This document shows, in pieces, positions 27,369 through 56,381 of a DNA stretch of 64,000 bases. This DNA comes from Candidatus Thorarchaeota archaeon (GTDB lineage Archaea > Asgardarchaeota > Thorarchaeia > Thorarchaeales > Thorarchaeaceae), in NCBI GenBank assembly GCA_021498125.1, contig JAIZWL010000004.1, forward strand, positions 62,001 to 126,000, in the 5' to 3' direction. A model generated the notes under the pieces. The model was not told where the DNA came from. It did not search any database and saw only the letters and a program-made list of their open reading frames with translations. The position numbers and the translations under genes are program-made. Each line of letters opens with the position of its first letter. The stretch's first letter is position 1.

Positions 27369-30300
27369 TTAATCTAGGTCGATACCAAGACTGTCTAGGA
27401 GCGCATCAAGATCCGCCTTAGAGAGAGATTTGGCCTGCTCGAGGATGATCTCGATCTCATCAGCAGTCATGCCCTTCTTCTCCAGCTTCAGTCGTAGCTC
27501 TTCGAGCTCTGAAGGCGTCTCCGATAGAGTAGGTCGTTCTACTGCCTCCGGAGCTTTACCCTCAGCCGTGGCAAGGGCCTCGGCACGACGAGCCTCTTCT
27601 TGAGCGATGACCTCCTTGAGGAAGCCGGGTCGCTCACTCGCCTTCATTCGTGCAAGATCAGCCTTGAAGGCCTCAATCTCTTCATCGCCAAGACCAGTTA
27701 TCTCAGCAAGCCGAGCGAGAAGCTCGTCCACCTCTGGAATTATGGCCTTGATAGGATACCCCTCAATATCGGCCAAGTCCTTCTTGAGTTTGACAGGTTC
27801 CAACTCGGTATTCACGATGTCGAGGATCATCTCCTGACGTGAAGCAACAGGTGGAATCCGCGGAATCCGGCCCTTTCTCAGGAGACGAATCATTGCATTC
27901 AGCCACCGGATCATCTGGGGGACGCTATAGACCTTGACGTAGAAGAATAATAGCGCAGCCAAGATGACAAAGCTGACACTCCCGAAGGTAATAGCGGTCT
28001 GGACAGCAATCTGGGCAGCCGAGGGACTCGACTGAATAACGAACTGTATCTGCTGAGTCGCGTAGTTATTCTTACTGAAAGTCACACTCATTGGGAAGTT
28101 ACCCGCATCACCTACAAAGAAGGAGAGGACATAGGTGCCATTTCCTTCTGCTCGCATATAGTCGGGGAAGTAAGTCAGATTACCCGGACCAAGAGTGACC
28201 TGTGGAATGACACCATCAATACCAACATTGTGATCGAGATCCCAGTACTGGATAGTGATCTCAATGGTGGCACCGGGCACGGTCTTGATAGTCTGTGTTG
28301 CCACAAAGTATGTCGTCAATATTGGTCGGATTATCAGTTCCAAGTTTAGCGGGCTTATCTGATAGTACGACGCATCAAAGGTAATGCTTATGCTATACGT
28401 GTCGATCGGGAGATAATCTGGAACAGTCAGCGAGTAGGATCCATTGGCCATCGGAATAAGCTGTATGGAGCCGATGGTCTCCCAGATCGCGTAGCCATTG
28501 ATACCAGTGACCGTCTCACCAGTAAGCGAGTTTTTCACAGTGAAGATGATTGTCGAACTCTCATTGATTGGGACCGAGACACGTTTCAGACCCTGAATAG
28601 TAGTCGGGATCCGAGTCATGACCAGATTGACCTCTTTGAGCGCAGTATTGTGGTTTGGCTTGGCAAACTCCACATCCACATCATAGGTTCGGGGCACAGT
28701 CATGTTGAGAATCAATGCAACTGTGTACGTCCCATTATGCAGATCCGTGATTGTCACAGCGCCTCCATCCCAGTTGACTGTCACATCCGCATCCATAACA
28801 GGAGTGGAGTCATGCGTGTTGTTGAGGTAAAACCTGAAAATGACCATGTCACCATGATAGCCTGACTTGGTCACAGTGTCCGGAATAGCTTCAACGGGGA
28901 TCGCAAGAACATTGAAGCTGATAGTACGCTGAGAGATCGCGTAACCAGTCTTTGCGGCCGAAACACGCAGTTGATACGATTGGACGTTCAGCTCACTTGC
29001 ATTCAACTCGGCACGGTAGGTATGATCGGGTTGCTCAACAAAGAACCCTGAGATTCCGCCAACCTTGTAAGACACGCTGGCACCAGAGATGCGTTCTCCA
29101 AGATAGGTGTCATTATACTCGGCCGTGAGCACCACAATATCCCCGTAATAGGCGGACATCGTGATAACACCACCATTTACCCAAATACCAGTGAAAACTG
29201 GCGAAACCGTCACATCAAGGACGATATCGAGGAATGAATAGCTATCGGCAATAGCACGCACAACGGCCTGGTATTGACCCACTGCAAAACCACTAGCATC
29301 AATAATGCCACTATAGTATCCGGGAGTCCCATTGTACGTGAGCACATAAGCGGTATCATTCCAAGTGATAGTGACTGTTGCAAGATTGACCGGATTATGA
29401 CGAGCGTTATCTTCCAGATAGACCCAGATCGGAACTGATGTCGAAGCGACTATCTGAATACTCGAGCTCTGCGGCAGAATTGTGCCAGAGGCCTTTGTGA
29501 GAACCATGGAGATACTCTTTGAACGCGTCTGATAGAACTCACGCGACACTCGAACAGTCAGGTCATAAGTCCCATAGGACTGTGTTGTTGTGTCGAGGTA
29601 CAGGATGTAGGTCCCATTGTGAAGATCAGTAAAGTTGTAGACGGTAATATTCCACAACAGTTGCGCAGTCATCTCAGGAACTGAGGTATTATGGTAGGGT
29701 TCACGGACATCGATTCGAATCGGAATGATCGCGCCCCATTCGTCGTAATAGGATGTATGCTCAAGATATATCTCGACCGTGAGAGCCCCTGGCTGGATAG
29801 TGACCGATGCCTCTGCTGTACGATAATTGGATAACGACGCATTCACGGTAAATGGATAAGCTTGGGCAAGGAGCCCGGTCGTATTGATAGCAAGCTGATA
29901 TACTCCACCACCAATATAGTTTATCGAGACAGAGGTGCCATAAAGACTATACCAATCGGTTTCAACGGTTGCCCCAGTCAATGCAACATCGTGATCAACG
30001 TCGTAAAAGGTGACATTCACTATCTGTAGCTCACCAATAGGCAGCGATGCCGCTGGAGGAGCCTCACTGATCAGGTTTGTCTGGATCAAGCGAATCACGC
30101 CCACCACATTTGTAATAGTACGTGATCTGTAGAAGGGCGAACCGCTCTTACTGGCTGTTAAATTGAAATAGACAGAACCAGTGCCACCGAATTGATCTGT
30201 TGGAACCAGCACAGTATACGAGCCATTACCATTGTCCGTAAGATAGTAGGTGGGAGAACTCACATTGACAAAAGTCAGTGCAACAGCAGCTCCACTTATC

Positions 30301-33300
30301 CCCTCATCAGAGATATAGTCGATGTATTGGAAAATAATTGACATATTATCGAGATAGGGAGTGGACTCGACAAGGGAGAAGAAGATCTGTGTGGGCCGTT
30401 CCACAGTTGTGGCAGTAGTCGTTGTACTACGGGGAGCATAGTACGGAGCCCCAGAACTTCGATCTATGGCTATCTGAATCTCTTCATTTGTCACCAACGA
30501 GGTCGAACTCAGAAGTGAAGAGTTAAAGCTGATCTCATAGTATGTACCGTGATTGATCAATGCATAATTGCTGTCTGTTATGACCGTATGGCCAACGCCA
30601 TGGCTCAGAGTGATGTGCGACTTTGCGATTGCTATCAGATCACCAGTCAGGAAATCACTGAACTTGAAAGTAAAGGTCACATTCTCCTTGAATGGAATCT
30701 CGCCTGGTGTCTGAACAAGAATTATCTGCGTATATCGCTGTATCACACGAGCGTTGATGGTCTTTGAGGCTGACTGATAGAATGGTGCACCACTACGACT
30801 CAGCGCCACATTAATCGGGAACGAGGCAACCGAACCGAGTGCAACTGAATCGATCTCAATACGATACTGGCCATTACCGATATAGGTGACCCAGTAATTG
30901 GAGGCATCGAGTGCCGAAGAGGAATTACTACAACTCACAACAACTGTTGCACCTTCAATTGGAGACCCGGTGGAATCATCTGTATAGGTCACGACAAAAG
31001 TAACGTTCTCTGCATAAGGAGTCGGGTCAGGAATATCATACCCCAATTGGGTCACTCTCTTGCTTACGGAGAGTGATAAAAGATCAGTGGCATCAGCCTC
31101 ATAATTTGAGCCTGTATAGACAATGGTGACATTGAGGATAAAGGTGCCATCTGACGAGAATGCAGAACTATTGAGCTCAACACTATAGTGGCCGTTTCCA
31201 AGATCGGTCACTGTGTACCAACCTGCAAGTGAGGCATTGAGCGTGAGGATGCCCACCATGTTCGCTGAAGAACCACTCACAAGATCAGTGTAGACGAATT
31301 CAAGGGTCACGTTGTTCTTCCACTGAACGCCCGGAACCGAGATATGAGACAGCTGGGTACTTCTACGAGACACATAGACAGTAAAACCAAAGGAGGCGAC
31401 ATCTTCGTAGAAGGGCGAACCTGTCCAAGCAACATTCAGATGAAGGGTGAAAGTGCCAATGCCACCCAGACTTGATGTGTTGATAGCCATTGTAAAGAGC
31501 TTGGTAGTGCCGTCATAAGATAGTGTATACACAACACTCCCCTCAGATAGACTGATCGTCAGGGAACTACTATTAGCAATTCGTGCAGTGCTTAGGGAGT
31601 CAACATAACTGAAAGAGAGATTTGCAAGCTCACCATATGGTGTCCCCTGAACTGGACTGTTATCAACATAGGTTGGTCGCTCTAATACGATGAGGGTCAC
31701 ATCCATTGTCTTGTTCTCGTACAGTGGGGGTTGACCCGATTTCCACATGAATTCAATTCTAAAGACAAAGGATCCCACAGCGTTGAACAGAGAAGAGTTG
31801 AGTCGGAACTCGTAGGTCCCAGGATTCCCGGACAATTCCATTATGACAAAATCGGACTGTGTGACAGGATGTCCAGTAGTCAGCGGGGTGATACGGACAA
31901 AGACACCATTTGTTCCATTTGAGATACGTGTGGAATTCACTACATCCCAATAGACTGCGGTGAAGGTGAAATTCTCAAGATAGTATTTTGCTGTCGGAGC
32001 CTGTTCAAGGTAGAGATCTGTGTCCGTACCAAGAACACGAACAGTCGTGTCAATGGTCCCATTCTTGTATTTGGTAGTCCCGGGATCGGTCCACCGAACA
32101 GTAATTCTGAGATCTTTCCACCCGATAGTGCCCCACTGTTCTGCCTTGAGGGTGATGTTATAGTGTCCCGCGCCCAGACTTGAAACAGCCACATTCCATG
32201 TGAGAGTTGCTGTTGGTGAGCTGACTTCGATACGGACGTAACCAGTGCTGTTGACTATCCCCTCTCCAAGATCCGTGTCACGGTATTCAACAAGGATGAC
32301 TATGTCAGTCTGATATGGAGTCTGCTCAACTGGACTGTCTAAGACAAACAGGGTATTGTGACTGCGGACTTGAACATCGACTGTGAAAGTATGGTTCTGA
32401 TACCCGCCCTTGGTGACCGTGAAATTGACCACATAGTATTCACCCGGAGCAGTAAGAGGATCATCGCTCTCGGTGAAAATCGTGATCTCGTAAGTACCCG
32501 GCGAGGTCTCGATCACAGTATAGTTCTTCTCACCAGCAGAATGGAAACTTGTCCAGTTGCAGACAATTGAACTATTTGAACCCGTGATAGGCTGGTTGGA
32601 GTCGGTGTCGGTCCATGTCAATGAAAACGAGGCGGATTCACCAACTGGGATGGACAACTGATTTGCCGTGTAGGATATTGTATTGTAGATCTCACGTACT
32701 TCAACGAAAAGAATCATACTCTTTGTAAGTACAAAGGAAGCACTTGCCGTGATCGCAAGAGGATACTCGCCAAGATCAACGCCTGTCATGTCCAGAGTGA
32801 CGTGGTAGATGCCATTCCCAGACTCAACGACAGAATAAGAGCCAGTCCAGTTACAGCTGATTGTGGCACCGGTGATACCCGTACCATTCACATTCGTATA
32901 ATTGACATCAAACGACTGATCTTTACCGATTGCATCAGAGATGCCGGGATATTGTGGGGATGACACTGTGGCATCATAGTGAATATTGAACACAAGATGA
33001 GCAGTCGACAGGTCGTAGGCACCATGCGTCCAAGTGAAGTCCATCGTGTAGGCACCCTTACCAGTCACATTGGTGGTGTCAACAACCTTGGTATATTCAC
33101 CAGTACCACTATCGTCAAAGGAACCACTCCCGCCAGCCCAAGTGAACTGAAGTGTTCCACCCGAAACTAGAACATCACTGTCGGTATCGTTGACCTTGAG
33201 AATCACAAGTACAAGATCCCCATAGGTCACATTAGTCACCCATGTTCCCACAGCATCTGAGGGATAACTGATGACTATGTCCGATGAGTGGATCACGTTA

Positions 33301-35126
33301 AAGGCGCGCTTGAAGAATCCAACATTGCGAGTATAGGTATTGGTGCCCGAGTCCTCTGTAAATGCCTGAATCATCCAAGAACCAGCACTTGCATTAGCTC
33401 CTGCTAGAGTAAATGTCGGAGAGGTTGCATAGCCTGAACCGTCAACGGTCGCCAAGACCGAATACCAGCTGGAACCACTGGGATCGAACACGGTAATGTT
33501 GACCACTGAGTTCGTGTAAGACATGCCAACATTGACCCGGACTTGCGTTGTATCGTCGGCACGGAAGGAAATGGTGCGTGTCCAGCTTGACGTGCTTGGA
33601 TCCTTGACCTCAATATCAGTGATCATGTTCGGGGCCGTACTTAGGATTCGCCAGTAACCATACCTCCCTGCTTCAGTGGTCACCTGATAGGCTGACACAT
33701 TGAGATACCCATCACCGGGATCTCCACCAGACCAGCCAGTCGTGAGATTGGTCGCGGGATCTAAGGGTCGAGCAACTGAATAGACATCACGATTGAGGGG
33801 TATTGTCTGATTGAAGAAATATCGATTCGAGTAGCCAGTCGGAATATCTGCAAGATAGAATGTTGAGAAAGAGGCATCAGTACCATTTTGAACCGTGTAG
33901 GATTCCCCATATGCTGTAGGATTGATATCATAGACCGTTCGAGTGCCAGTGCGCCGAGCAAAGGTGTTGACTGCAATATCGAACTCCACCTGAATAAACC
34001 TGTTCGGATCAGGTGTCGAGGGAGTCGGAGCCCACGTAAAGTTCAACTTGACAGGATTTGTGGTCCAAGGTGATGCGGGCGTTTGGTAGATGTGGCCATT
34101 TCCCCAGCCTGCATCAGTGGTGACATCTTCACCGTTCATCTTTAGATTGACATTTGCAGGCGTGGCAAGCGTCTTGAGATACAAGCGGACATTATCAAAC
34201 TTGGCAGTAGGTCCAATCTCGGGATCATAACCGACATTCTGTTTACTCCAGAGCCCGATCTCAATATCTACAGTCGTGAGTGAGAAGATATCAGTGGGGA
34301 CACTCACAAGACCTGAATCAAACCAAGTCCGTTCCGCAGCAATGTCATCAAAGACAAGCTGCCAGACCATAGACCCTTCCACACGTGCATAGACTGCAAA
34401 GGATCCAGTCATATTATAGTGCGTATCATCTTTGGTCTGAGCCCAATAATCCAGTCTCAGACCCGCCCATACAACAGAGCCTCGATCAACGGTCATGGAC
34501 TGAGAGGCATATGCAAAATCCCCGTTATCATAGTAATAGGGTGCACTTCCAGAGTTGCTGCTGATCTCAACATCAATACAGCCACCACCAGAAGCATCAC
34601 CGGTGGAATTGTAGGAGGAAATGGGAGTACTATATGAACCAGCGTCCGTGTTGCCTAGGGACCAGTTGCCAGTACCAATCGCAGTTGAGAAGTCGTCATT
34701 CTTGATCCATGTGCGATTCTCCGTCAGTCCGGTGATTGTGGCCTCTGTATAGTACGCTTCCCAGTCGGTGCCTGTAGGTACATCTACTGACACATCTGTT
34801 GTCGTACCATTGGTAAGGTATTTCATCGATTGGTCCTGTAGACGATCGGTCCGGTTGCCATATTCACCACCCTGAAGATATTCGGACGTTCCACTCCACT
34901 CGACCCAGCCCTGATCGGTCAAGACAAATTCATGAAGCTCTTCACCGGGACCAAGCTTAATTTGTTGACCATCACCGATATCGACCACTCGCGAGCCAGT
35001 AGTACTATCAGTGGGACTCGGACCAGTCGTGGATAAGGGACTGGTGACAATCGCGGCCTGTAAGACAAACAGGGTCAGCGCAAATGCAACAAATGCCATG
35101 GGAACAAGTCTTCGACGCACATTCAT
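27369..35126 (-). CDS. Giant Ig-like repeat surface protein with cytosolic helical tail (2585 aa)
   Basis: After a signal peptide (residues 8-28) comes a conserved N-terminal part (IKLGPGEELHEFVL...ENRTW) and a jelly-roll-like domain (about 130-330). About 18 Ig/transthyretin-like units of 90-110 residues follow (about 620-2360), with the recurring pattern TPY.....F...Y.D...G..I..A..........G.Y. One membrane span lies at about 2372-2398. The cytosolic tail of about 180 residues contains two helical blocks: SERPGFLKEVIAQEEARRA and, at the end, MTADEIEIILEQAKSLSKA. It is a full-length paralogue of the upstream gene, whose stop overlaps this ATG by one base (TAATG). GGAGG lies 12 bases upstream. 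The layout suggests an adhesive stalk linked to a cytosolic binding module. Ligand and partner are unknown. Confidence 0.9.
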   Translation of the reverse strand: MNVRRRLVPMAFVAFALTLFVLQAAIVTSPLSTTGPSPTDSTTGSRVVDIGDGQQIKLGPGEELHEFVLTDQGWVEWSGTSEYLQGGEYGNRTDRLQDQSMKYLTNGTTTDVSVDVPTGTDWEAYYTEATITGLTENRTWIKNDDFSTAIGTGNWSLGNTDAGSYSTPISSYNSTGDASGGGCIDVEISSNSGSAPYYYDNGDFAYASQSMTVDRGSVVWAGLRLDYWAQTKDDTHYNMTGSFAVYARVEGSMVWQLVFDDIAAERTWFDSGLVSVPTDIFSLTTVDIEIGLWSKQNVGYDPEIGPTAKFDNVRLYLKTLATPANVNLKMNGEDVTTDAGWGNGHIYQTPASPWTTNPVKLNFTWAPTPSTPDPNRFIQVEFDIAVNTFARRTGTRTVYDINPTAYGESYTVQNGTDASFSTFYLADIPTGYSNRYFFNQTIPLNRDVYSVARPLDPATNLTTGWSGGDPGDGYLNVSAYQVTTEAGRYGYWRILSTAPNMITDIEVKDPSTSSWTRTISFRADDTTQVRVNVGMSYTNSVVNITVFDPSGSSWYSVLATVDGSGYATSPTFTLAGANASAGSWMIQAFTEDSGTNTYTRNVGFFKRAFNVIHSSDIVISYPSDAVGTWVTNVTYGDLVLVILKVNDTDSDVLVSGGTLQFTWAGGSGSFDDSGTGEYTKVVDTTNVTGKGAYTMDFTWTHGAYDLSTAHLVFNIHYDATVSSPQYPGISDAIGKDQSFDVNYTNVNGTGITGATISCNWTGSYSVVESGNGIYHVTLDMTGVDLGEYPLAITASASFVLTKSMILFVEVREIYNTISYTANQLSIPVGESASFSLTWTDTDSNQPITGSNSSIVCNWTSFHSAGEKNYTVIETSPGTYEITIFTESDDPLTAPGEYYVVNFTVTKGGYQNHTFTVDVQVRSHNTLFVLDSPVEQTPYQTDIVILVEYRDTDLGEGIVNSTGYVRIEVSSPTATLTWNVAVSSLGAGHYNITLKAEQWGTIGWKDLRITVRWTDPGTTKYKNGTIDTTVRVLGTDTDLYLEQAPTAKYYLENFTFTAVYWDVVNSTRISNGTNGVFVRITPLTTGHPVTQSDFVIMELSGNPGTYEFRLNSSLFNAVGSFVFRIEFMWKSGQPPLYENKTMDVTLIVLERPTYVDNSPVQGTPYGELANLSFSYVDSLSTARIANSSSLTISLSEGSVVYTLSYDGTTKLFTMAINTSSLGGIGTFTLHLNVAWTGSPFYEDVASFGFTVYVSRRSTQLSHISVPGVQWKNNVTLEFVYTDLVSGSSANMVGILTLNASLAGWYTVTDLGNGHYSVELNSSAFSSDGTFILNVTIVYTGSNYEADATDLLSLSVSKRVTQLGYDIPDPTPYAENVTFVVTYTDDSTGSPIEGATVVVSCSNSSSALDASNYWVTYIGNGQYRIEIDSVALGSVASFPINVALSRSGAPFYQSASKTINARVIQRYTQIILVQTPGEIPFKENVTFTFKFSDFLTGDLIAIAKSHITLSHGVGHTVITDSNYALINHGTYYEISFNSSLLSSTSLVTNEEIQIAIDRSSGAPYYAPRSTTTTATTVERPTQIFFSLVESTPYLDNMSIIFQYIDYISDEGISGAAVALTFVNVSSPTYYLTDNGNGSYTVLVPTDQFGGTGSVYFNLTASKSGSPFYRSRTITNVVGVIRLIQTNLISEAPPAASLPIGELQIVNVTFYDVDHDVALTGATVETDWYSLYGTSVSINYIGGGVYQLAINTTGLLAQAYPFTVNASLSNYRTAEASVTIQPGALTVEIYLEHTSYYDEWGAIIPIRIDVREPYHNTSVPEMTAQLLWNITVYNFTDLHNGTYILYLDTTTQSYGTYDLTVRVSREFYQTRSKSISMVLTKASGTILPQSSSIQIVASTSVPIWVYLEDNARHNPVNLATVTITWNDTAYVLTYNGTPGYYSGIIDASGFAVGQYQAVVRAIADSYSFLDIVLDVTVSPVFTGIWVNGGVITMSAYYGDIVVLTAEYNDTYLGERISGASVSYKVGGISGFFVEQPDHTYRAELNASELNVQSYQLRVSAAKTGYAISQRTISFNVLAIPVEAIPDTVTKSGYHGDMVIFRFYLNNTHDSTPVMDADVTVNWDGGAVTITDLHNGTYTVALILNMTVPRTYDVDVEFAKPNHNTALKEVNLVMTRIPTTIQGLKRVSVPINESSTIIFTVKNSLTGETVTGINGYAIWETIGSIQLIPMANGSYSLTVPDYLPIDTYSISITFDASYYQISPLNLELIIRPILTTYFVATQTIKTVPGATIEITIQYWDLDHNVGIDGVIPQVTLGPGNLTYFPDYMRAEGNGTYVLSFFVGDAGNFPMSVTFSKNNYATQQIQFVIQSSPSAAQIAVQTAITFGSVSFVILAALLFFYVKVYSVPQMIRWLNAMIRLLRKGRIPRIPPVASRQEMILDIVNTELEPVKLKKDLADIEGYPIKAIIPEVDELLARLAEITGLGDEEIEAFKADLARMKASERPGFLKEVIAQEEARRAEALATAEGKAPEAVERPTLSETPSELEELRLKLEKKGMTADEIEIILEQAKSLSKADLDALLDSLGIDLD

Positions 35127-46605: not shown

Positions 46606-47673
46606 ATGATCTCTAAAAATGCAATACTTGGCCTCGTTGTCATTTTTATAATCGTAGGTGCTGGTGCTGGCATCTATCTCGTGACACAACCCGTCCACAA
46701 TCCCTATGAAGTTGCAATAGTCTTTGCAACAGGGGGACTCGGTGACAAATCATTCAACGATGGATGCTACACAGGAGCGCAGAAGGCGAAGACGGATTAT
46801 AATATTAATTTTACCTATTCCGAACCTGAAAAAATATCCGATTATGAAACCTTCTTGCGGCAGTACGCATCCCATGCCGGATATATTGAACCATTTGACC
46901 TCATCATCAGTGTCGGCTTCGATCAGGCAGATGCTGTAATGGCGGTAGCAAAGGACTATCCGAACCAGAAGTTCGCAATTGTTGACATGTTCATTGATCC
47001 AACAAACTATTCGAACGTGGCGTCACTCTTGTTCAATGAGAACGAGGGATCGGCCCTTGTCGGTGCGATCGCAGGCCTGACAACCAAGACAAACAAGATC
47101 GGATTCCTTGGTGGCATGGATATTCCGCTGATCAGAAAATTTGCCGCTGGCTATGTCTGGGGTGCAAACTACACCAATCCTGGAATCCAGCACACAGAAC
47201 AATATGTGGGAGACTGGGCTGACCAAGCAAAGGGTAAGACCTTGGCAAGTGGAATGTACACGGACGGCGCAGACATCATCTTTGCTGCTGCCGGACGATC
47301 GGGACTCGGTGCTTTTGACGCAGCTAAAGAGATGAATGCAACCTCTTCGCACCCACTCTGGGTAATCGGCGTGGATTCACCGCAGATGTACCTCGGCTGC
47401 GCAGACACAGATAATCCGGCACCACCTACAGTAGGCCTGACATCTATGCTCAAGCGAGTCGATGTTGCAGTATACAGTATCATGCACGAGGCGGTTCTCG
47501 GCACGTGGACTGGCGGTCTCAAGTTCTTCAACTTGGCCAATGGTGGCCTCGACTATGAGATTAATGAGTCGCTTCTCACACTGCCGCAGTCGGTCAAGGA
47601 TACTGTCAATGATCTCAAGCAGGCAATCATCAACGGGACCTTTACGGTACCTAGTGATATCTACTGGACATAA
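46606..47673 (+). CDS. BMP-family ABC transporter substrate-binding protein (nucleoside-type)
   Basis: The 355-aa protein has an uncleaved-looking N-terminal membrane anchor (residues 6-27, ILGLVVIFIIVGAGAGIYLV) with no lipobox cysteine. The PF02608 (Bmp/Med/PnrA) domain follows, with the family signature GLGDKSFNDGCYTGAQKA, then IGFLGGMDIPLIRKFAAGYVWGA and WVIGVDSPQ. In characterised bacteria this family binds purine nucleosides. The ATPase and two permeases that follow are the matching partners, so the four genes form one importer. A terminator-like hairpin separates this gene from the rest, which would allow more binding protein than membrane parts. Exact substrate specificity is not shown by the sequence. 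Confidence 0.9.
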   Translation: MISKNAILGLVVIFIIVGAGAGIYLVTQPVHNPYEVAIVFATGGLGDKSFNDGCYTGAQKAKTDYNINFTYSEPEKISDYETFLRQYASHAGYIEPFDLIISVGFDQADAVMAVAKDYPNQKFAIVDMFIDPTNYSNVASLLFNENEGSALVGAIAGLTTKTNKIGFLGGMDIPLIRKFAAGYVWGANYTNPGIQHTEQYVGDWADQAKGKTLASGMYTDGADIIFAAAGRSGLGAFDAAKEMNATSSHPLWVIGVDSPQMYLGCADTDNPAPPTVGLTSMLKRVDVAVYSIMHEAVLGTWTGGLKFFNLANGGLDYEINESLLTLPQSVKDTVNDLKQAIINGTFTVPSDIYWT

Positions 47674-47767: not shown

Positions 47768-47804
47768 ACCGTGCTGGTAAGCCTATACTAAGGTGGACAG
47801 TCGA

Positions 47805-49634
47805 ATGACAACCATGACCGATCCCACTGATCACATGCCTTATGCGGTTGAGCTTGAAAACATATCCAAATCTTTTCCCGGAGGAGTTCAGGCTAACAAA
47901 AACATCACATTACAAATTAAAGAAGGAGAGGTCCATGGTCTTCTTGGGGAGAATGGAGCAGGAAAGAGCACACTGATGAATGTACTCTATGGTCTCCTCG
48001 GAAAAGATGCTGGGCGTATCGTCATTCGCGGAGAAGAGGTGACATTACGGTCCCCCGAAGATGCCATATCCCGAGGCGTGGGAATGGTCCATCAACATTT
48101 CAAACTCATACCTACACTCACAGTGACTGAGAATGTGATGCTGGGTGCAGAACCCAGTGCTAGTAAAATTGGAAAGGACTCATTATTTATTCTGGTTATT
48201 TTGGCGTTTTCAGTGATCGTATTTGCTGGTTATTTCCATGGAATCCTTACCAGCATGATACTATTAGGCGTCATCATATTATTAATATTAATATCGCTAA
48301 GAATGAATGCATGGCTTTCAAATGTGCACAATAGAATCATCTCAAAACAAAAAACATCGTCGGGGTTGAAGGCGAGAATATGGGGTGCAATTGCGTCCAC
48401 AATACTTGCAATTAAAGCGATCTTTCTGAGCCTGCGCCCATTAGGATACGACGAGGCCCGCAAGAAAATCATGGAGGTCGCAAAGGCCAATGGTATGGAG
48501 ATCGATCCGGATGCGAAAGTGCAGGACATCTCGGTAGGCCTTCAGCAACGTGTAGAGATCATTAAGGCACTCTATCGCAATGCCGAGATACTGATCTTGG
48601 ATGAACCGACCTCTGTTCTCACACCACAGGAGGTCGATGACCTCTTTGAGACCCTGAAGCAATTCCGCGACAGTGGAAAGACGATCATTCTCATCACCCA
48701 CAAGTTGAGAGAGACTATGGCATTGTGTGATAGAATCAGTGTCCTCCGCGATGGCGAACTTGTTGGTACAGTTAACAAGACGGACACAACTCCCGAGGAA
48801 CTCGCTCAGATGATGGTCGGAAGACCATTTGTATTCGGTCTTGAGAAGGAACCAGCCAGACCGGGAGATGTTGTTCTCTCAGTCGAGGACTTGGTTGTGA
48901 AGGACATTCGCGGAGTGACCATGGTCAAGGGGGTATCGTTTGAGGTCCGAGCTGGCGAGATCCTTGGAATAGCGGGAGTAGAGGGCAACGGACAGACGGA
49001 ACTGGTGGAGGCAATCACAGGATTGACCAAGGTGGATAAGGGGAAGATCACCATTGACGGGGTCGATATCACTCAGGCCGATTCCAGAGCTGTCAAGGAG
49101 GCGAGGGTGGCGCACATTCCAGAGGACCGACAAAAAAGAGGTCTCATCCTTGCGTTTTCAGTAGAGGAGAATATGGCCCTTGGAGCACACTATAGAGAAC
49201 CCTTTGCCAACAAGTGGGGGGTATTGCAACCATTTGAGTTTCGTAGGAATGCGATAGCGCTAGTAGACAAGTACTCGGTAAAGGTCACTGATGTCGCGGA
49301 TCCGGCCTCCACACTCTCAGGAGGCAATCAGCAAAAAGTAGTGGTCGCTCGCGAACTCAGTTCAGACCCGCGCATCGTTATTGCAGCACAACCAACAAGA
49401 GGGCTTGATGTCGGAGCCACCCAGTATATTCACAATGTGCTTCTTGCCCTGCGAGACTCGGGTGTAGCGGTTCTCCTAGTTTCAGCAGAACTTGATGAGA
49501 TTCGTGCCCTATCGGATCGTATCGCTGTAATCTTTGACGGCCAGATAATAGCATCTCGTGATTCCACATCAGCGACAGCACAAGAACTTGGGCTTCTGAT
49601 GGCAGGTCATTCAGTAGAGGAGGCTACCACATGA
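47805..49634 (+). CDS. Double ABC ATPase of BMP-type importer, with membrane-segment insertion
   Basis: Two nucleotide-binding domains are fused as in the RbsA/YufO family. The first has Walker A GENGAGKS (about 48-55), ISVGLQQR as signature and LILDEPTSVLTPQE as Walker B. The second has the degenerate P-loop GVEGNGQTE, signature LSGGNQQK and AAQPTRGLD. The family is normally about 510 residues; this protein has 609. The excess lies in the first domain, between NVMLGAEP and the signature. About 92 residues (about 48160-48435) there hold two strong hydrophobic segments (LFILVILAFSVIVFAGYF and ILTSMILLGVIILLILISL) and a third weaker one. The inserted bases are more AT-rich than their flanks. 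The ATG at 47805 is chosen over the GTG at 47793 for its spacing from AGGTGG. It overlaps the permease gene by ATGA. Confidence 0.9.
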   Translation: MTTMTDPTDHMPYAVELENISKSFPGGVQANKNITLQIKEGEVHGLLGENGAGKSTLMNVLYGLLGKDAGRIVIRGEEVTLRSPEDAISRGVGMVHQHFKLIPTLTVTENVMLGAEPSASKIGKDSLFILVILAFSVIVFAGYFHGILTSMILLGVIILLILISLRMNAWLSNVHNRIISKQKTSSGLKARIWGAIASTILAIKAIFLSLRPLGYDEARKKIMEVAKANGMEIDPDAKVQDISVGLQQRVEIIKALYRNAEILILDEPTSVLTPQEVDDLFETLKQFRDSGKTIILITHKLRETMALCDRISVLRDGELVGTVNKTDTTPEELAQMMVGRPFVFGLEKEPARPGDVVLSVEDLVVKDIRGVTMVKGVSFEVRAGEILGIAGVEGNGQTELVEAITGLTKVDKGKITIDGVDITQADSRAVKEARVAHIPEDRQKRGLILAFSVEENMALGAHYREPFANKWGVLQPFEFRRNAIALVDKYSVKVTDVADPASTLSGGNQQKVVVARELSSDPRIVIAAQPTRGLDVGATQYIHNVLLALRDSGVAVLLVSAELDEIRALSDRIAVIFDGQIIASRDSTSATAQELGLLMAGHSVEEATT

Positions 49635-51118
49635 GCGACGATACCGAACAGAGACCCACTCAGGAAAAAGAGAGTCATGCCGAACCAAACATGATAGAAC
49701 GGATAATAGTCAAGCTCACAACTAAACAGTTCAAAAAGGACATGCTATCGACGCTCATATCTATACTCTTGGCACTTGCTGTTGCGGCGATCTTGATGGT
49801 AGCTACTGGCTATGACCCGGCCAAGGCATTTGGCGCACTCTTCATCGGTGCGATCATGCAATTCGACCAAGTCCTCTATCAAGCAACCGCTCTCACTCTC
49901 GCCGGACTCTCTGTCGCTCTTGCGTTCAAGTGTGGTCTGTTCAACATCGGTGCCGAGGGCCAGATCTACATTGGGTCAATTGTTGCAACTGCTGTAGGGT
50001 ACATAATCGCACTGCCAATTGTCGTTCATCAACTGGCGTGCTTGCTCATCGGCGTGCTGGCTGGGACTCTATACGGGCTGTTGCCGGGGATCTTGAAGGC
50101 ATATCGTGGAGCGCATGAGGTAGTCACAACCATGATGCTCAGCTATGTGGCAGTCCTGCTCACACAATGGTTCGTGTCACAAGGACCTATGCATAATCCC
50201 GGTGACTGGCGCAGCGTGTCGCCATTCATTCTACCAACAGCAGAGCTCCCGAAGATCTTAGGTTCTTCCTTTCTTAACGTGGGATTCCTTCTCGCAATAT
50301 TGGCAGTGGTCGGCGTTGATTTCTTCATCAATAGAACTGTCATGGGTTATGAGATGAGAGCGGTTGGACAAAATGAGGAGGCTGCTAAGACCGCAGGAAT
50401 CAACTCTAAACGAAACATGGCCCTTGCCCTCGCATTCAGCGGCGGTCTCGCAGGCCTAGCCGGGGCTGAAGAGATCATGGGTTACTACCATCGGTTCTAT
50501 GATGGATGGTCGGCGGGTCGTGGCTTTGATGGCATCACAGTTGCAGTCCTCGGAAGAAACAATCCGTGGGGCGTCTTTGCGAGCGCCATATTCTTTGGAC
50601 TCCTAAAGGCAGGGGGCGGAAATATGCAGACCTTCGCAGGAGTGCCAAGTGAGATGGTGAATGTGATCCAAGGCCTCGTAGTACTCTTTGTCGCAGCCCC
50701 AAAACTTGTTGACTGGCTCGCCGAACATGGATCAAGAAATGCAATCCGACTCAAAGAGTCCCCACGTGAGGGCATCCCGGCTATTGCGGGAATCGGGTAT
50801 GGCGTTATGACAGTCATAGTCGCTGTGGCCTTTGTTGGGTCCACAGGTACAAACAGCCTGACACTGCTGATTCTAATAGTGACGATGTTAGCGGGATTAT
50901 TTACAACTGTATATCTCTACAAAGGCGATGAGTTCGGAATATGGTCACTGATCATCACTTCCATTGTCTGGTTGGCGGTTGCCGTCTCATATCTTGGTGC
51001 ATTCCAGGGAGCGTTGGGCACAACAACTGCGCTCATAGGCGGCGTGGGAGTACTTCTCTTCATATGGCTGCTCAAACTAACAGAGAGAGAACTGAATACG
51101 GGGGTTGAAGAAGAATGA
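49631..51118 (+). CDS. ABC importer permease 1 (YufP/NupP-like), with extra C-terminal spans
   Basis: This is a BPD_transp_2 family inner-membrane permease of 495 aa. The conserved core covers about residues 40-375, with AFKCGLFNIGAEGQIYIGS, MLSYVAVLLTQWFVSQGPM and GFDGITVAVLGRNNPWG, typical of the nucleoside/simple-sugar BMP systems. After EHGSRNAI a further 110 residues carry three or four hydrophobic segments not present in the usual protein of about 350 residues. The start overlaps the ATPase stop (ATGA), and the stop overlaps the next permease (ATGA), so the three are translated together. Confidence 0.9.
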   Translation: MSDDTEQRPTQEKESHAEPNMIERIIVKLTTKQFKKDMLSTLISILLALAVAAILMVATGYDPAKAFGALFIGAIMQFDQVLYQATALTLAGLSVALAFKCGLFNIGAEGQIYIGSIVATAVGYIIALPIVVHQLACLLIGVLAGTLYGLLPGILKAYRGAHEVVTTMMLSYVAVLLTQWFVSQGPMHNPGDWRSVSPFILPTAELPKILGSSFLNVGFLLAILAVVGVDFFINRTVMGYEMRAVGQNEEAAKTAGINSKRNMALALAFSGGLAGLAGAEEIMGYYHRFYDGWSAGRGFDGITVAVLGRNNPWGVFASAIFFGLLKAGGGNMQTFAGVPSEMVNVIQGLVVLFVAAPKLVDWLAEHGSRNAIRLKESPREGIPAIAGIGYGVMTVIVAVAFVGSTGTNSLTLLILIVTMLAGLFTTVYLYKGDEFGIWSLIITSIVWLAVAVSYLGAFQGALGTTTALIGGVGVLLFIWLLKLTERELNTGVEEE

Positions 51119-52071
51119 TGCAGGCAGGAGATATCTTCACACTTGTAATGATCGGTTGGCTGATCAAGACGACACTCCAGATGGCGACACCACTCGTATT
51201 GACTGCGCTGGGCGGTATGTTCAGTGAGAGAACGGGAGTTGTCAATATCGGCTTGGAAGGTATGATGCTCATAGGGGCATTCTCAGCAGTCGCAGCGACG
51301 TACTTCACATCGGACCCATGGATTGGAGTTCTTGTCGGAGTGATTGCAGGCGGTATGCTCGCCGCAATTCATGCAATAATCTGTGTGAAATTAAAAGGCG
51401 ATCACATTGTAAGTGGGACCGGAGTCATTCTCTTTGCTGGAGGGTTTACCACACTCATGCTTGATGTGATCTGGGGGGCGAAAGGGATCTCTGATGAGGT
51501 CTCCAAACTCCCGCAGGTGGTCATCCCCGGAATCCAAGATGTACCACTCATTGGAACCATCTTCGGTTCTCTGTCACCGATCGTATACTTCATGTTCATT
51601 GCAACGATCCTATCATGGTACGTCTTGTATCGAACACCACTTGGTCTTAGAATCAGGGCGGCCGGAGAAGACCCGAGTACTCTTGATGCCGCAGGAGTCA
51701 ATGTCGAGATCATCAGAATTGTGGGCGTGATACTCAGCGGTTGTCTAGCCGGGCTCGGTGGGGCCTACCTTTCAATCGGCTTTGGCTCAAGGTTTGGAAA
51801 GATGATGACTGCTGGAAGAGGCTTCATCGCTCTTGCCGCGTTGATCTTCGGAAATTGGTCTCCAAAGGGCAGCTTCCTTGCCGGCACATTCTTCGGATTC
51901 CTCGAAGGGCTCCAGATGTACATCGCTCTCAGTTTTCCTGATCTCCTACCATTCAGCAACTTCGTGCGGATGATCCCTTACATTCTGGTCGTGATAGCAC
52001 TGGCTGGAATCAGGCGTTCAGTCCCACCAAAGGGTATTGCAATACCGTACGAGAAAGAAAGACAAGGATGA
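51115..52071 (+). CDS. ABC importer permease 2 (YufQ/NupQ-like)
   Basis: The 318-aa BPD_transp_2 permease contains the family pattern LGGMFSERTGVVNIGLEGMMLIGAF at the first spans and GEDPSTLDAAGVNVEIIR in the cytosolic coupling loop that contacts the ATPase. GGAYLSIG and AGRGFIALAALIFGNW follow. Eight to nine hydrophobic segments are visible. It would pair with permease 1 to form the channel of the importer. It is the last gene of the operon, and a hairpin at 52076-52096 follows its stop. Confidence 0.92.
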   Translation: MMQAGDIFTLVMIGWLIKTTLQMATPLVLTALGGMFSERTGVVNIGLEGMMLIGAFSAVAATYFTSDPWIGVLVGVIAGGMLAAIHAIICVKLKGDHIVSGTGVILFAGGFTTLMLDVIWGAKGISDEVSKLPQVVIPGIQDVPLIGTIFGSLSPIVYFMFIATILSWYVLYRTPLGLRIRAAGEDPSTLDAAGVNVEIIRIVGVILSGCLAGLGGAYLSIGFGSRFGKMMTAGRGFIALAALIFGNWSPKGSFLAGTFFGFLEGLQMYIALSFPDLLPFSNFVRMIPYILVVIALAGIRRSVPPKGIAIPYEKERQG

Positions 52072-54818: not shown

Positions 54819-56381
54819 TTACTCGGAATAGGACTTCCATAACTCGCCCCACTCGGTCTCTTCAAAGAACCATTTGACCCATTTTTTGCCTTTCAGCGGG
54901 AGCCAAATACCGTCATGATAGAGCCCGGAGAGTTGAGTTGGTAGCCACATCAATGGCGATCTAAATAGAAGCCATTCCATTCCCGGGAAGCGAAGAAAGC
55001 CACGATTCCAAGTGATCACAGGACTTCGACCAGTCGAGAGATGGAAGTTCGGAAGATCTTTCCACGACTCGAAATCACCAACGAGCTCGATGTTCTCGGG
55101 GTCCGACTCGCCAAGGCCTAACTCCTTTGCGATCTGTAGCTTTCTGACAAGCCTCTGGTCAAGACCCATGATCCGAGTCTGAACAGTATCGGCTGCAACC
55201 ATATCGTTCGTTGCAAGAAGTATATTTCCGACCTTTGGGATCATAGTACGCGGACCCGCCCCATCCCCAACAATGGTACCGTCGGTGAGCACAAACTCGG
55301 AATTGGAAATTGTCTTTTGAAGGAAAAGAAGATCTACTAGCACCTCATGGATCTTCAGATGAGCAAGATGCCGATTCTTGGTCAAATAGAGACCAAAAGA
55401 GTCCTTCAGAGCCCCAGTCATCTCCGTGTGGCCGTGTGTGTTGTGAAGAACAATTCCGTTTCCTACAAAATTGTTAGTCCCGGTAACACTCAAATCGTAT
55501 AGATATTTAACATCACTGTCAATTTGAGTTACTTCAGTCACATGATCCCATGCAATATTGTCGAACGTAATCTCTTCATTTTGAAGAGCTGCGATCATAT
55601 CACCTTGTGTAATACGATCAGCTCGTTTCCAGCCTGTTGGTGTCAAAAATGGATGGCGCCCAGAAACTTTGACTTCCTTAGAGGTCTTTGTCTTAACTAG
55701 ATAGAGCTTCTTTGGAGAAGGAGTTCTCCAAAACTGATAGGCGAATCCTTCTTTGACCGACCCATCCGGATTCAATGTAACAATACCCACACGAGATTCT
55801 GCGACAGCATCCCCATCGGGAGTAGCAATCACATCGGTGCTCTCATGGATATCATCCACAAGATCGGAAATGGGCAAGATGCGTCCATCTGCAAGATGAA
55901 CCTGGGTATCGGGATGAACGCACTTAATTGTAGGCAAGTGGACTATGTTTGTCCCGAAGATCTCTTTGGGAGCGATGACTTCTCCAAATATGTTCTCCAG
56001 CTCGAGTGTTCTTCGCGAGAGTTTGACAGGAACGTAGTGAGCATAGATTAGTGGAAAGAATTTGATCTTGTGCTTTCGCAGGACGGGATACCAGTTATTT
56101 TGTCGAGTGCCTTCAAAGATATTTGTCACGACGGTCTCGTTTTCAACCGCCTGTATTCGTCGTGGCTCATAGCCATCAGCAATTAGTTTTTTGAGGAACC
56201 CATCAAGAATATACGGGTTCGTCGAGCAGGCCGGATAGAACTTGCTCCATGAAAGATTAAGTTTGATACTGGTTAGCTTGTTTTTATCGATGTGCTTATC
56301 ATAATCAGCCAAGTCCATCAGACGGGCGATATCATCAAAAATGGTCTTTGGACTTGTCTTGACAACTGCAACTTTGACCAT
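54819..56381 (-). CDS. DUF362 domain protein interrupted by a mini-intein
   Basis: The host protein (about 359 aa after splicing) belongs to DUF362 (PF04015): KLTSIKLNLSWSK near residue 35-47, an internal PTIK|THGHTEMTGALKDSFG junction that restores the conserved K-T-H-x-x-x-T-G-A-x-K motif, and GDGAGPR with a later MVAADTVQTRIMGLD. Residues 154-314 are a 161-residue intein. DUF362 proteins are sometimes joined to ferredoxin domains; none is seen here. The catalytic role is unknown. It is the first gene of a four-gene minus-strand set with a UbiA-type prenyltransferase, a PHP phosphoesterase and a flippase-like protein. Splicing of the intein would be required to make the active protein. Confidence 0.88.
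   Translation of the reverse strand: MVKVAVVKTSPKTIFDDIARLMDLADYDKHIDKNKLTSIKLNLSWSKFYPACSTNPYILDGFLKKLIADGYEPRRIQAVENETVVTNIFEGTRQNNWYPVLRKHKIKFFPLIYAHYVPVKLSRRTLELENIFGEVIAPKEIFGTNIVHLPTIKCVHPDTQVHLADGRILPISDLVDDIHESTDVIATPDGDAVAESRVGIVTLNPDGSVKEGFAYQFWRTPSPKKLYLVKTKTSKEVKVSGRHPFLTPTGWKRADRITQGDMIAALQNEEITFDNIAWDHVTEVTQIDSDVKYLYDLSVTGTNNFVGNGIVLHNTHGHTEMTGALKDSFGLYLTKNRHLAHLKIHEVLVDLLFLQKTISNSEFVLTDGTIVGDGAGPRTMIPKVGNILLATNDMVAADTVQTRIMGLDQRLVRKLQIAKELGLGESDPENIELVGDFESWKDLPNFHLSTGRSPVITWNRGFLRFPGMEWLLFRSPLMWLPTQLSGLYHDGIWLPLKGKKWVKWFFEETEWGELWKSYSE
55440..55922 (-). other. Mini-intein (161 aa, no homing endonuclease) in the DUF362 protein
   Basis: The first residue is Cys154 in the block-A sequence CVHPDTQVHLADGRILPISD. 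Block B is VSGRHPFLTPTGWKRAD, with the T-x-x-H-type histidine position filled by GRHP. The end is YLYDLSVTGTNNFVGNGIVLHN, with terminal His-Asn (residues 313-314). The following extein residue is Thr315, a permitted nucleophile. The middle is too short for a LAGLIDADG or HNH endonuclease. Removal joins K153 to T315 inside the most conserved motif of the host, typical of intein insertion at active-site-like positions. Confidence 0.9.

Follow-up and report, generated by a model that had tools for sequence, protein, structure and literature searches.

A predicted membrane-crossing hairpin inside the ATPase of a BMP/Nup-type ABC importer from an Asgard-type archaeon

The importer operon and its two-domain ATPase

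The stretch of DNA analysed here, referred to as the window, spans 64,000 nucleotides of a Candidatus Thorarchaeota genome and contains a four-gene operon (Table 1). The gene for a binding protein is followed by that for an ABC ATPase (gene 2) and by those for two BPD_transp_2 permeases, an order that is kept in relatives. To judge from sequence, the ATPase and its operon make up a nucleoside importer of the BMP/Nup type, from an Asgard-type archaeon, as three traits of such importers are found together: a BMP/PnrA receptor in the operon, a single two-domain ATPase, and two adjacent BPD_transp_2 permeases. Nucleosides are presumably the substrate, by analogy with characterized members of the family (PMC12628685, PMC7093131). 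Related nucleoside importers are TK0657-0660 of Thermococcus kodakarensis and BmpA-NupABC of Lactococcus (PMC12628685), and BmpD/BB0677-0679 of Borrelia (PMC7093131). All three have the same four components as the window importer, and the T. kodakarensis genes also share its order.

Table 1. Genes of the importer operon and parts of the ATPase insert, in window positions. Sums are 19-residue hydrophobicity sums, lower values being more hydrophobic.
Feature	Position	Strand	Basis
BMP/PnrA-type substrate-binding protein (nucleoside receptor family), operon gene 1	46606..47673	+	PF02608 (Bmp), E 1.2e-62
Two-domain ABC ATPase (NupO/NupA-like), carrier of the insert	47793..49634	+	ORF; PF00005
Insert, residues 122-215	48156..48437	+	Alignment with 30+ relatives, bacterial homologues, LptB and MalK
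Predicted transmembrane segment 1, residues 130-148, SLFILVILAFSVIVFAGYF	48180..48236	+	Sum -2.3; AlphaFold helix 128-149
Predicted transmembrane segment 2, residues 151-169, ILTSMILLGVIILLILISL	48243..48299	+	Sum -4.9; AlphaFold helix 151-188
Cationic continuation of the second helix, residues 170-188, presumably cytosolic	48300..48356	+	AlphaFold helix 151-188
Return helix, residues 192-214, borderline hydrophobic or amphipathic	48366..48434	+	AlphaFold helix 192-214; hydrophobic moment
Permease 1 (NupP-like)	49631..51118	+	PF02653 at residues 79-354 of 495
Permease 2 (NupQ-like)	51115..52071	+	PF02653, E 8.4e-44

The ATPase reading frame holds 613 residues and two ABC ATPase domains, with two stretches matching PF00005 (ABC_tran, E 1e-52). 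Translation likely starts at the ATG at 47805, which is preceded by an AGGTGG motif. A preliminary description of this DNA had the motifs kept in both ATPase domains, which is not so for domain 2, where Walker A is degenerate (GVEGNGQTE) and Gln replaces the catalytic Glu (AAQPTRGLD). This degeneracy is also usual among relatives without the insert, and the retrieved bacterial BMP-type ATPases match the window ATPase in their motifs, degenerate second site included.

Permease 1 is extended at its C terminus by ~130 residues that include several predicted spans. The extension is present in the family members checked, whether or not their ATPase has the insert, and in the related family f9; in all of these the ATPase loop at the insert site is at least 50 residues long. 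The extension is missing from the bacterial BMP-type operons and most of the other operons checked, where the loops are 35-36 residues. It therefore tracks the longer ATPase loop, yet a single clade shares both, and the association is weak. The extension was considered as a partner of the insert and was ruled out in that role, since insert-less relatives have it too. In another family of the same phylum (L192 of genome G109 and L193 of G101), one ORF of ~970-1020 residues, which looks like a fusion, makes up the importer permease.

Position, composition and predicted structure of the insert

The insert lies in the first nucleotide-binding domain and is part of a single uninterrupted reading frame. 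On one side it is bounded by the helix that follows the Q-loop (TVTENVMLGAEP), on the other by the helix preceding the signature (YDEARKKI...ISVGLQQR). The alignment places its ends within a few bases of those first proposed (48160-48435). The distance from GxE to the signature ISVGLQQR is 125 residues in the window ATPase. Of the 79 bacterial homologues in which it was measurable, 77 have 35-37 residues here and two have 43; in family members without the insert it is 50-68, mostly 51. The excess is thus ~90 residues relative to bacterial homologues and ~74 relative to insert-less members of the family. With the loop of 51-76 residues in family f9, lengths at this site are graded, from 35 in bacteria through 51 in the family and 51-76 in the related family to 106-125 with the hairpin and 151 in G059. 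The insert is richer in AT than its flanks, as had been noted: its GC fraction is 0.376 (0.326 in the transmembrane part), whereas the remainder of the gene has 0.507. Because GC1 and GC3 are both lower in the insert, this AT-richness is more than an effect of hydrophobic codons.

Hydrophobicity was summed over 19-residue windows on a biological hydrophobicity scale. Two strongly hydrophobic segments stand out in the insert (Table 1). The preliminary description had allowed for two or three; the third, at residues 196-214, is borderline (+1.4) and hydrophobic in few relatives, so that the count is two. No window at or below +3 occurs outside the insert in the ATPases scanned, nor anywhere in the insert-less ATPases, and the permease spans of the same importer range from -3.2 to +2.5. 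Every complete insert shows such a pair of strongly hydrophobic segments, separated by a very short turn; across carriers their sums run from +0.9 to -4.9, and charged residues in them are few or absent. Among ten inserts, the turn contains no Lys or Arg, the N-terminal flank one to three, and the C-terminal flank three to five; in the window ATPase, the 25 residues after segment 2 include five Lys or Arg and no acidic residue. A turn free of these residues between flanks that bear them fits a hairpin with both ends in the cytosol.

An AlphaFold2 model of the window ATPase, built from 32 sequences, has a mean pLDDT of 85, with block means of ~60-85 for the three insert helices listed in Table 1. 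These are long, additional helices that do not belong to the canonical fold. Since the canonical flanking helices (111-116 and 219-232) persist, the insert sits inside the helical subdomain of domain 1 without destroying it. The preliminary description was right that membrane-type segments interrupt this subdomain, and right to call this unexpected. From its sequence and the model, the insert is predicted to cross the membrane twice with both ends cytosolic; the return helix may serve a different purpose. A soluble, peripheral ATPase is the usual property of BMP/Nup importers, and the two spans in domain 1, which are a prediction, speak against it here.

None of ten members gave an above-cut-off Pfam match for the insert, and the TgpA_N and DAGK_prokar matches were discarded as they were below cut-off, confined to single members and not shared. 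The insert sequence matched none of the solved structures, and a Foldseek search with the whole ATPase model returned only ordinary ABC ATPases, a result uninformative on the insert. Derivation of the insert from a different gene of this genome was rejected because the genome has no second copy of it. The hairpin occurs in none of ten other ABC ATPases checked in this genome and is not a common habit of its ABC ATPases.

Distribution and evolution among relatives

Of the 47 genomes in the family, 13, which belong to four genera, carry an insert at the same site and in frame. It is complete in 11 of these (G000, G003, G006, G017, G020, G043, G048, G052, G057, G059, and G060) and is cut by a contig end in the other two, the contigs of G047 and G051 beginning inside it. 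G051 has one version with the insert and one without. The AT-rich segment and its low similarity might suggest an assembly chimera, contamination, or a frameshift. However, 13 separately assembled genomes share the insert, always in frame and under purifying selection, which rules out an artefact and leaves this explanation a vanishingly small probability.

The hairpin diverges quickly. Between the sister species G000 and G003, its transmembrane part is 44% identical, compared with 85% for the rest of the ATPase, and the corresponding values for another carrier pair are 58% and 87%. Inserts from other genera are 9-21% identical to that of the window ATPase, and no residue of the hairpin is invariant among the inserts compared. 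Over the whole insert, dN/dS is 0.17-0.27, compared with 0.04-0.14 in the remainder of the ATPase and, where measurable, 0.1-0.2 in the transmembrane part; in the more distant pairs, synonymous sites are nearly saturated. The insert is under purifying selection. Given the low identity of the transmembrane part, it is hydrophobicity, charge pattern and reading frame that are kept, not particular residues.

Trees were computed from the ATPase without its insert and from a concatenation of all four importer proteins. In both, the carriers fall into three main groups and three changes are needed, although a single carrier clade, with one origin followed by losses, is not rejected (AU p 0.265). Many inserts start with a shared EPxSxK, which hints at one origin. 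The ATPase of G048 (L166) groups with the insert carriers while its whole operon groups with insert-less ones, a conflict suggesting that gene exchange within the operon may have occurred. The most elaborate ATPase is that of G059 (L173:5176-7266, minus strand), with its 151-residue loop and a third hydrophobic segment in the first insert. It also has a second hairpin-like insert in domain 2, directly before VREAGVSHIPEDR, with two moderately hydrophobic helices; this second insert is missing from its relatives G006 and G017. AlphaFold models the first hairpin of the G059 ATPase with good confidence (77-90) and its additional segments with low to moderate confidence.

Membrane anchoring and its alternatives

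The insertion point was compared with E. coli LptB and MalK, taken from the MG1655 record. Residues E120 and P121 of the window ATPase, immediately before the insert, align with LptB Q104 and I105. Photo-cross-linkers at these two LptB positions gave UV-dependent products in vivo, and those at D97 and M100 gave none (PMC5082905). The study assigns this LptB groove to contact with the permeases LptFG (PMC5082905), and the F508 region of CFTR lies at the NBD1-ICL4 interface (PMC3434365). The stretch preceding the insert appears, by its EN motif, to correspond to the F508 segment. From the match to Q104 and I105, the insert probably faces the permease and the membrane, and a hairpin leaving at this point could, by homology with LptB and CFTR, reach the bilayer beside the permease.

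These observations point to a membrane anchor. A helical hairpin would have been inserted in the loop between two helices of the domain 1 helical subdomain, on the permease-facing side. It would turn a normally peripheral ATPase into an integral membrane subunit and tether it beside its own permease pair, which would make the assembly more stable or ensure that the ATPase stays with matching permeases; the tethering role is one that we infer. That the insert is a membrane-crossing hairpin anchoring the ATPase beside its permeases, and not a sensor or translocation element, is reasonably probable. The operon and the ATPase motifs are otherwise unchanged in insert carriers, as far as the four importer genes compared. 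Together with this unchanged operon, a hairpin that is near-uncharged and fast-diverging yet always hydrophobic makes an anchor the best-supported explanation. A sensor or translocation element would be expected to conserve polar or specific residues, and none such is seen. Against an anchor, a tether is expected to be useful everywhere, yet many sister species lack the hairpin.

The preliminary description had proposed a new regulatory module. Such a module would sense a membrane property or bind a partner and alter coupling through the helical subdomain, and would draw on the location of the insert in this mobile subdomain, next to the expected coupling-helix contact, and on the long cytosolic helix pair that follows the hairpin in the AlphaFold model. 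The proposal finds no support, however, in segments that have few or no charges and no invariant residues, that fall to 9-21% identity to the window insert across genera, and that diverge several times faster than the remainder of the protein while keeping their hydrophobicity; nor was an extra gene noticed in insert operons among the four importer genes compared. Regulation is accordingly considered unlikely. A soluble hairpin, buried or oligomerising without crossing the membrane, would agree with the helices predicted by AlphaFold, which does not model membranes. Set against this are near-uncharged 19-residue segments with a hydrophobicity comparable to or above that of the importer's permease spans, and a turn without Lys or Arg, so that a soluble hairpin is given very little credence.

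A serious alternative to the anchor is a near-neutral, tolerated elaboration, in which an extended loop near the membrane gained hydrophobic sequence and now crosses without specific benefit. The gradation of loop lengths from 35 to 151 residues, the second hydrophobic insert in domain 2 of G059, the fast evolution of the insert, and its patchy distribution are all in keeping with such a history. Drift of this kind is nonetheless difficult to reconcile with the same two-segment pattern and charge bias in all complete cases despite great divergence, or with the low dN/dS of the transmembrane part, and its probability is put as quite low. A bolder proposal, held only tentatively and doubted, is that the hairpin packs on the permease as part of the coupling machinery and that this lineage gained membrane hairpins in the ATPase on more than one occasion, 13 genomes having one in domain 1 and G059 another in domain 2. 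If true, a hairpin in the coupling machinery would be a different architecture for ABC importers.

The ATPases of ABC importers are usually seen as soluble motors whose only docking contact with the permeases is through coupling helices. In ABCG proteins, MacB, RbbA, and ABC exporters, the ATPase is covalently joined to membrane helices, as in the window ATPase, but in those proteins the membrane domain constitutes the permease and precedes or follows the ATPase domain. The window ATPase instead has two helices inside the ATPase domain and separate permeases, and the lack of a Pfam match to the insert is also unlike a fused permease. The regulatory insertion in NBD1 of CFTR is a soluble one at a different place in the domain, whereas the window insert is hydrophobic and follows the F508-equivalent segment. 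The literature searched, which took in only a minority of subscription papers, gave no account of membrane helices within the ATPase domain of an ABC protein, and the arrangement is likely new. A conserved hairpin at the coupling interface would offer a natural experiment to show how tightly an ATPase has to be held and whether covalent anchoring in the membrane alters coupling. Direct comparison is possible between related species whose operons differ only in having or lacking the hairpin, and between the two versions in G051.

Other features of the window and genome are recorded here. Between 3869 and 43870, on the minus strand, lie four very large ORFs of 2179-2914 amino acids; FG-GAP beta-propeller, TSP3, and NHL repeats occur among them, and the ORF at 27369-35126 (minus strand) has no Pfam match. 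In the same genome, the ESCRT-II family PF05871 scores above cut-off, as it does in none of 14 control genomes, a sign that this archaeon is an Asgard one. At 54819-56381 of the window (minus strand) lies a gene for a DUF362 protein, whose residues 162-314 form an intein splicing domain (PF14890, E 6.3e-19).
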